Origin: an uncultured Verrucomicrobia subdivision 3 bacterium
GTDB taxonomy: Bacteria; Verrucomicrobiota; Verrucomicrobiia; Limisphaerales; UBA8199
Assembly (NCBI GenBank): GCA_903913865.1
Contig: CAIWMU010000162.1
Span: 1 to 43,693 of the forward strand
DNA: 43,693 nt
Reading direction: 5' to 3'
Positions within the stretch are counted from its first letter, which is position 1; each line of letters opens with the position of its first letter. Shown one piece after another: positions 41,623-43,326 of the stretch. The notes beneath the pieces were generated by a model. That model had not been told where the DNA came from, made no database searches, and worked only from the letters and a program-made list of their open reading frames with translations. The translations under genes were made by a program, and so were the position numbers.

Positions 41623-41652
41623 TTGACAAAATCATGATGTTGATCTTAGGAT
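41623..41652 (+). promoter_or_regulatory. Candidate strong promoter before sRNA/tRNA-Asp
   Basis: A perfect -35 TTGACA (41623-41628), 18-nt spacer and TAGGAT (41647-41652). Expected start is near 41658-41660, exactly at the 5' arm of the predicted stem of the candidate RNA. Confidence 0.65.
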
Positions 41653-41657
41653 CAGGC

Positions 41658-41740
41658 CGTTCGGGTAGCGGTACGTTTCTTCAGCGGGGTTCCCCACCCC
41701 CACCTCCTTGGCGTCTGCTGCCCGAACGTAAATTATTTTC
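41658..41740 (+). ncRNA. Candidate small structured RNA with anti-Shine-Dalgarno-like loop
   Basis: CGTTCGGGTAGC (41658-41669) pairs with GCTGCCCGAACG (41717-41728): 12 bp with one G-U. The enclosed 47 nt include GGGGTTCCCC and CCCACCTCCTTGG; CACCTCCTT (41701-41709) equals the 16S rRNA anti-Shine-Dalgarno sequence. AAATTATTTT follows the stem and could end transcription. It fits no RNA family I can name. An alternative reading is a processed leader of the tRNA-Asp transcript. Confidence 0.45.
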
Positions 41741-41795
41741 GGGATACGCTTGACGGTTGAATGTTCATTTCATAGTTTTGCGGTCCCAACAGTGC

Positions 41796-41872
41796 GGGGG
41801 CGTAGCTCAATTGGTTAGAGCGCTGCCCTGTCACGGCAGAGGTTACGGGTTCGAGCCCCGCCGCTCCCGCCA
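41796..41872 (+). tRNA. tRNA-Asp (GTC)
   Basis: Acceptor arms GGGGGCG (41796-41802) and CGCTCCC (41862-41868) pair over 7 bp; TAGCTC starts the D arm; anticodon stem CTGCC/GGCAG holds loop CTGTCAC with anticodon GTC; T loop is TTCGAGC. Discriminator G and an encoded CCA end the gene. The first T-stem pair is an A-C mismatch. Confidence 0.95.
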
Positions 41873-41878
41873 TTCTTT

Positions 41879-41905
41879 CCCCAGGTTTTACTAGAAAACC
41901 TGGGG
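41879..41905 (+). terminator. Perfect hairpin after tRNA-Asp
   Basis: CCCCAGGTTTT (41879-41889) and AAAACCTGGGG (41895-41905) form an 11-bp perfect stem with a 5-nt loop, 6 nt after the tRNA. A T tract is lacking on the plus strand, so it could be a terminator or part of the attachment region of the adjacent integrase. Confidence 0.55.
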
Positions 41906-42000: not shown

Positions 42001-43326
42001 ATGGCAACAAAATCAAAGTACGTATACAACGCTAACGGCGTTGATTTCACTATCTACAAGGTCGAAAAGCCCACGAAGTCGGGGCCAAAGACCTATTGGC
42101 TCTTGGAGGATTTCTCCACGGGAACGCGCCGCACCCTCAACAACGTCTCCCGAGAGGCTGCCGAACGCAGGGCGGACGGAATCCGGGCTGCCATGGTCAA
42201 GGGGCAGGCCCACCGTCTGTTGCTCAGCAACGGTCAGTGGCAAGATGTTTGCATCGCGGTTGAAATCCTTCGCAGTGCCAACATGGCGGAGTCACTTGGG
42301 TCGGCAACCCGGTCATGGGTGGAATGCGTCACCATTCTGGACGGGAGGGCGACGTTGAGGGATGCCGTGAAATTCTTCGTCGGCCACAACTACGGAAAAG
42401 GGCATCAACTTAAGACGATTCGCTTTGATGAAGCTGCCGGGCTCTACCACGCTTTCAAAGTAGCCGATGGAAAGTCCGAGTCCCATTGCGGAAACATCTT
42501 TTCCCGGCTGAAGCGGCTAGGGTCGAAACTGCCGACCGGAGTTCTGCTCGACAACTTGACCGCAGGACAACTAGAAAACGCGGTGGTCAGTCTTGGACTA
42601 TCGCCGAAAACGCGGAACGAGTACAAAATCGTGCTGGGCAACCTGTACGCGTGGGCTGGCAAACAGAATCCGCCGTTCGTTCCCAAGGGATTCAACCCCG
42701 GAAAGGAGATGGAACGTTGCAAAGTCAAGCACGGGGAGGTGGAATTCCTCGACGTCAAGGCGTTGAAACTGATTCTGTCCGCCTTACCAGCAAAACGCTC
42801 GGACCTGTTGCCATTGGTCGTAATGGTTTGCTTTGCGGGGCTTCGTCCGTCCGAGGCTGTCCGGGTCGAATGGAAGGAAGTCGGCGAGGATTATATCCGC
42901 CTGCCGGGGATGAAATCAAAGACCGGACGCAGCCGACAAATTCCCCTCCAGCCGAACATGAAATTGTGGTTGTCCCAGTGGCGGAAAGAGGAGGGTTTCG
43001 TTTGTCCTCATGTGAGTCTTGAGCACGTCAATGTTGCCATTAAGCGTGTCTCCGGGGTGCGTTTGAGCCACGACACGTTGCGCCACGCCTATGGCACGCA
43101 TCGTCAACTCATCGTCAAGAACATCGGAGCGGTTGCTGAGGAAATGGGAAACAGCATCGCAATCTGTCGGCGTCACTACGTGAATGCCTTTTGCACCGAG
43201 GCCGAAGCGACCGAGTGGTTCAGTCTTGGACCACAACAAGGCGACAACATCATCACGTTGGCTAACCACGACTTGCGGAATCCGCCCCAGACAGGTGACC
43301 GAACCGAGAAGGTTGCGACGTCTTAG
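42001..43326 (+). CDS. Tyrosine recombinase / phage-type integrase
   Basis: A 441-residue site-specific recombinase. The N-terminal 90 residues are an arm-binding-like region, followed by a SAM-like core-binding domain (about 100-215) and a catalytic domain. Catalytic residues: Arg282 in AGLRPSEA, His357 and Arg361 in SHDTLRHAYGTH, and Tyr393 in CRRHYVN. The usual second His/Trp is Asn384 (MGNS), an atypical but tolerated position. It lies 128 nt after tRNA-Asp and reads away from it, the standard layout for an element integrated at a tRNA 3' end. No second tRNA fragment is in the window, so the element probably extends to the right. Confidence 0.9.
   Translation: MATKSKYVYNANGVDFTIYKVEKPTKSGPKTYWLLEDFSTGTRRTLNNVSREAAERRADGIRAAMVKGQAHRLLLSNGQWQDVCIAVEILRSANMAESLGSATRSWVECVTILDGRATLRDAVKFFVGHNYGKGHQLKTIRFDEAAGLYHAFKVADGKSESHCGNIFSRLKRLGSKLPTGVLLDNLTAGQLENAVVSLGLSPKTRNEYKIVLGNLYAWAGKQNPPFVPKGFNPGKEMERCKVKHGEVEFLDVKALKLILSALPAKRSDLLPLVVMVCFAGLRPSEAVRVEWKEVGEDYIRLPGMKSKTGRSRQIPLQPNMKLWLSQWRKEEGFVCPHVSLEHVNVAIKRVSGVRLSHDTLRHAYGTHRQLIVKNIGAVAEEMGNSIAICRRHYVNAFCTEAEATEWFSLGPQQGDNIITLANHDLRNPPQTGDRTEKVATS

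Follow-up and report, generated by a model that had tools for sequence, protein, structure and literature searches.

The window, by which we mean the whole stretch of 43,693 nucleotides analyzed, contains upstream of tRNA-Asp a 69-nt element that belongs to a family of structured RNAs with a near-invariant anti-Shine-Dalgarno sequence. Comparison with related genomes gives good support for the existence and strand of this RNA, and also for its structure and signals. Of the explanations considered, the one we favor, giving it roughly an even chance, is a standalone trans-acting small RNA (sRNA) of ~70-80 nt that would pair with the translation starts of a limited set of mRNAs.

The element in the window

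The copy in the window and its surroundings comprise the following features:

41623-41628, + strand: -35 box TTGACA of the predicted promoter of the RNA (read from the sequence and by promoter scan)
41647-41652, + strand: -10 box TAGGAT of this promoter, 18-nt spacer after TTGACA (sequence and promoter scan)
41659-41727, + strand: conserved RNA element, 69 nt (covariance model match, conservation in the order)
41659-41671, + strand: 5' arm of the outer stem, partner 41715-41727 (two-sided changes at 13 of 13 pairs)
41715-41727, + strand: 3' arm of the outer stem, pairing with 41659-41671
41673-41675, + strand: upper stem ACG, partner CGT at 41712-41714 (99.6% of cells paired, two-sided changes in 3 of 3 pairs)
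41686-41700, + strand: inner hairpin GGGG-TTCCCCA-CCCC (97.6% of cells paired, two-sided changes in 2 of 4 pairs)
41701-41711, + strand: near-invariant CACCTCCTTGG, predicted to be unpaired, containing the anti-Shine-Dalgarno ACCTCCTT (41702-41709)
41728-41739, + strand: U-rich tail 3' of the stem, predicted intrinsic terminator (U-tracts in the family)
41750-41778, + strand: separate promoter-like site of tRNA-Asp, TTGACG, 17 nt, TAGTTT (sequence, conserved in the alignment)
41796-41872, + strand: tRNA-Asp (GTC), the neighbor downstream of the RNA element

All signals named in the preliminary description are found in the window. The predicted TTGACA-18-TAGGAT promoter spans 41623-41652, and CGTTCGGGTAGC (41658-41669) forms with GCTGCCCGAACG (41717-41728) a 12-bp stem that includes one G-U pair and has precisely 47 nt between its arms. 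The anti-Shine-Dalgarno 9-mer CACCTCCTT is located at 41701-41709, AAATTATTTT follows 3' of the stem at 41730-41739, and tRNA-Asp lies ahead as described. The transcript of this copy probably extends from 41658/41659 to about 41739; its U-tract is interrupted.

Taken singly, the signals of the window copy are weak. The 9-mer has a chance expectation of 0.45 occurrences in the window, the promoter scan gave two matches where 1.3 are expected, and the fold has a z of -2.9 relative to shuffles. It is the conservation in relatives that sets the element beyond chance. The window copy matches the covariance model with an E of 4.8e-20, being itself part of that model, and the element shows no coding potential beyond a 7-codon frame that starts inside it.

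Structure, strand and signals of the family

A model of 20 pairs was evaluated on 84 distinct sequences, in which 95.1% of the cells are paired. Compensatory changes in the stem, whose lack among relatives the preliminary description would have counted against its proposal, were looked for and found, with two-sided changes in 18 of the 20 pairs. Covariation amounts to 0.590, compared with 0.187 ± 0.009 for shuffled alignments and at most 0.12 with the partners slid; an earlier outer-stem model guided the alignment, which biases the pair counts towards that model, but the controls lie very far below the observed value. In the inner hairpin, pairing survives the replacement of G-C by U-A and of G-C by A-U.

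The general layout of the family is a long variable outer stem, usually an inner hairpin, a near-invariant unpaired ACCUCCUUGG and often a U-tract. The anti-Shine-Dalgarno stretch has a predicted mean unpaired probability of 0.91, with values above 0.5 in 84 of 84 members. In distant members the inner hairpin is swapped for unrelated paired sequences, two of them having no clear inner hairpin, and the constant part is CUCCUUG adjoining the 3' stem arm; a few have an altered core or core start (UCUCC, GCUCC or CUCCCUUG). For members found by pattern scan the core was imposed by the search; the divergent members found by covariance model are free of this, and the core is still common to them.

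The family alignment contains 137 G-U cells versus 4 A-C cells, a ratio that fixes the strand of the RNA. G-U counts, U-tracts and promoter positions all point to the same strand, and the opposite one is ruled out by the G-U excess together with the one-sided U-tracts.

A TTGACA box (at least 5 of 6 bases) is present 32-36 nt 5' of the stem in 78 of 149 distinct elements, where about 3 would be expected, and 57% of the 149 have a U-tract (at least 6 T in 8) 3' of the stem, compared with 2.6% at random. The element thus carries the sequence signals of a standalone sRNA gene, its own promoter and an intrinsic terminator; with the predicted exposure of the anti-Shine-Dalgarno, this bears out the earlier proposal of a new small RNA. 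In six distant members (L377, L378, L379, L381, L382 and L384), an upstream TTGAAC, further from the stem, replaces TTGACA.

Distribution and copy number

In a DNA search with the region around the element, all 40 relatives gave a match, which in some of them is confined to the tRNA; additional copies at other sites were frequent. An alignment of 24 order-level copies is free of gaps and has a mean column identity of 95%, with changes mostly in the stem. The covariance model picked up a second copy in the window's own genome and divergent members from further classes of Verrucomicrobiota.

A covariance search for the element alone, with a model from a wider set, recovered it in 125 of 146 genomes from the order; among good genomes the figure is 81 of 88. 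Copy numbers range from 1 to 10. tRNA-Asp lies downstream of 70 of the 98 order-type elements. The same model found matches in 30 of 387 genomes of the phylum. A third covariance model detected the element in 97 of 384 genomes of the class (E up to 0.01); at this sensitivity, no member turned up in many families of the class that are well sequenced. Beyond the order, the element is patchier, occurring in some further families of the class and in members of other classes.

Scanning named genomes with a pattern yielded at least 118 stretches, mainly labeled Verrucomicrobia, Pedosphaera, Limisphaerales, Kiritimatiellae and Lentisphaerae, the last two assigned from record titles. Odd labels also occur (Omnitrophota, Patescibacteria, Taylorbacteria, Desulfomonile and Sumerlaeia), and some of these matches may be misbinned contigs. 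One element core is found in a contig of a viral collection (L365, 6432-6455). Paralogues have unrelated stems and an identical core. Conservation across the whole order, with members recognizable in other classes, makes an important role likely.

Possible roles of the exposed sequence

In the standalone sRNA that we favor, a sigma-70-type promoter would direct initiation to the first base of the long stem, and the long outer stem would double as the intrinsic terminator. Stem and inner hairpin would present the unpaired ACCUCCUUGG, which could pair with the translation starts of a restricted group of mRNAs, where these are AAGGAGG-like or otherwise rich in purines, and thereby keep ribosomes off. 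The multiple copies per genome, with differing stems and the same exposed sequence, would then be interchangeable siblings. Transcription, pairing with mRNAs and the outcome of the pairing are steps that we infer.

Evaluated by duplex energy, start regions complementary to the anti-Shine-Dalgarno show no excess in one genome of the same order (64 versus 72 in the control; 1.2 Mb, 758 genes), and they number 8 versus 10 in one genome of another class (0.4 Mb, 307 genes); both are partial genomes with simple gene calls, in which a small regulon would be missed. A search of the window's own genome for perfect complements of the anti-Shine-Dalgarno likewise exceeded no control, and these searches together yielded no target. 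Shine-Dalgarno use is very low, with GGAGG ahead of 26 among the 758 genes of one relative versus 12 at control positions, which counts against a broad covering of ribosome-binding sites. Some Verrucomicrobia are among the organisms listed as Shine-Dalgarno-scarce (PMC10783764).

The leaders of rpsU and infC were considered as targets, an idea that came from Flavobacterium and from one genome (G160) in which a gene identified by eye as infC has a strong Shine-Dalgarno, and were rejected: in the order (rpsU leaders surveyed at 19 of 30 loci, a few of them misread), these genes start with UUG, their purine-rich leaders are of other kinds, and pairing is weak. In that survey of rpsU (L225-L243), many bS21 genes apparently use UUG as the start codon, downstream of a conserved GAGAGGAAGTGA leader. 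Many infC genes (L335-L364) likewise appear to be UUG-started, behind a conserved CAACCGNNGAGGGTGTC leader.

The anti-Shine-Dalgarno is near-invariant although the mRNAs of this lineage hardly use it, an observation that lends some weight to a possible, if tentative, second reading, taken as a whole: the hairpin followed by ACCUCCUU may mimic the 3' end of 16S rRNA and titrate or regulate a protein or particle that holds the tail. Such a partner could be bS21-bS18-bS6, Era, which is an assembly factor, or some other factor of the ribosome. The proteins bS21, bS18 and bS6 hold the 16S tail in Bacteroidia (PMC9976891), 39 of 40 relatives have bS21, and many paralogues sharing one core would fit a titrating RNA. 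Against such a mimic, the sequence of the inner hairpin is unlike helix 45 and variable in distant members, and the tail-binding pocket is reported for Bacteroidia only (PMC9976891). That the family is a widespread 16S-tail mimic of largely Shine-Dalgarno-free bacteria, acting on ribosome assembly or the tail pocket and not on mRNAs, is likewise possible but not probable.

An RNA acting in trans on targets that are mainly not Shine-Dalgarno sequences is rather unlikely. Here, the inner loop UUCCYCA and ACCUCCUU, both exposed and conserved, would pair with G-rich coding stretches or other RNAs, and complementary 9-mers in the window's genome do fall mainly within genes, as do most occurrences of AAGGAGGTG. 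However, AAGGAGGTG is not enriched in this genome but rarer than its reversed control (69 versus 110), and the inner loop is altered in distant members.

Whichever role applies, an anti-Shine-Dalgarno RNA in bacteria that seldom rely on Shine-Dalgarno pairing raises a testable question, namely what purpose an anti-Shine-Dalgarno has when mRNAs do not use it. The family supplies a covariance model, a clear mutation target in ACCUCCUU and many natural paralogues.

Relation to tRNA-Asp and genomic context

The preliminary description had also considered a co-transcript with tRNA-Asp. In the 70 syntenic elements of the order, the tRNA gene is located 65-192 nt downstream on the same strand, an arrangement that would suit a leader or attenuator of tRNA-Asp. 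Nevertheless, a further promoter-like site lies between the element and the tRNA in all 70 cases, as identified by a loose pattern, and most members end in a U-tract. No tRNA is found near paralogues or near the copies from outside the order. One group of the latter shares another conserved intergenic spot, and the remaining ones are found between unrelated genes in both orientations. Since the neighbors differ outside the order, the element is not a tRNA leader as such, and we regard that role as very improbable; co-transcription with tRNA-Asp is unlikely given the intervening promoter-like site and the outside-order copies without a tRNA. Together with the promoter and U-tract signals, these observations suggest that the RNA is most likely its own gene, with transcription predicted from sequence.

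A mobile or repeat element without a cellular function of its own, which up to 10 copies per genome might bring to mind, is scarcely credible in view of the position before tRNA-Asp conserved across many families, the predicted own promoters, the strong selection on structure and the absence of plasmid or phage matches, with a single viral contig.

In two genomes (L098, 1576-1990, and L132, 5451-5865), an element copy is preceded at a distance of about 155 nt by a small gene that is lipoprotein-like and has a strong Shine-Dalgarno, AGGAGGTAGTT; a gene that is fabD-like by eye follows. In the window, a tyrosine-recombinase-like gene (42001-43326; Phage_integrase, 23.3 bits, just below the Pfam cut-off) is situated 3' of tRNA-Asp. 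A 31-nt sequence at 41849-41879, consisting of the tRNA-Asp 3' end and 7 bases beyond, has an exact copy on another contig (G000:C153, near 50055-50088); this repeat is likely the attachment site of an integrated island.

Comparison with known RNAs

No family of Rfam 15 matched at its gathering score, nor at loose E-values, and a search of the window's copy up to E 10 returned no match to the CcsR1 model (RF02791). The sole Rfam match, at one distant locus, is to RF02791 with 19.8 bits versus a cut-off of 65.3 bits (E 0.17). No description of a Verrucomicrobia small RNA with an anti-Shine-Dalgarno surfaced in the open literature.

With the 3' end of 16S rRNA (helix 45 and anti-Shine-Dalgarno), whose sequence we take from general knowledge, the element shares a hairpin followed by ACCUCCUU, but it has another hairpin sequence, an enclosing outer stem and a separate gene. 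The local 16S 3' end was not found in the window's assembly or in the loci examined. CcsR1-4 of Rhodobacter (RF02791) have in common with the element an anti-Shine-Dalgarno-like CCUCC motif and homologous copies. However, they arise by processing of a single operon that they share with ccaF1 (PMC10253847), whereas the element copies are dispersed and have their own predicted promoters.

The design looks most like that of the alpha-r14 or cuckoo RNAs of alpha-proteobacteria, which are short trans-acting sRNAs, as proposed for our RNA, with an ultraconserved and identical anti-Shine-Dalgarno that is unpaired, and with free stems (PMC10746234). In rhizobia this design silences mRNAs, alpha-r14 / NfeR1 masking ribosome-binding sites through an anti-Shine-Dalgarno of another sequence (PMC10746234), a parallel that favors the sRNA reading. 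The combination of free stems and a fixed motif is also found in our family. Cuckoo RNAs, in contrast, carry the motif CCUCCUCCC in three hairpins per RNA (PMC10746234), whereas the core of our aligned members, which come from a different phylum, is a single ACCUCCUUGG flanked by the inner hairpin and by the 3' arm of the only outer stem. With another motif, another number of hairpins and no Rfam model scoring above its cut-off, the element falls outside the alpha-r14/cuckoo RNAs and is unrelated to them, and it is best filed as a new RNA family of a known type in an unusual setting.
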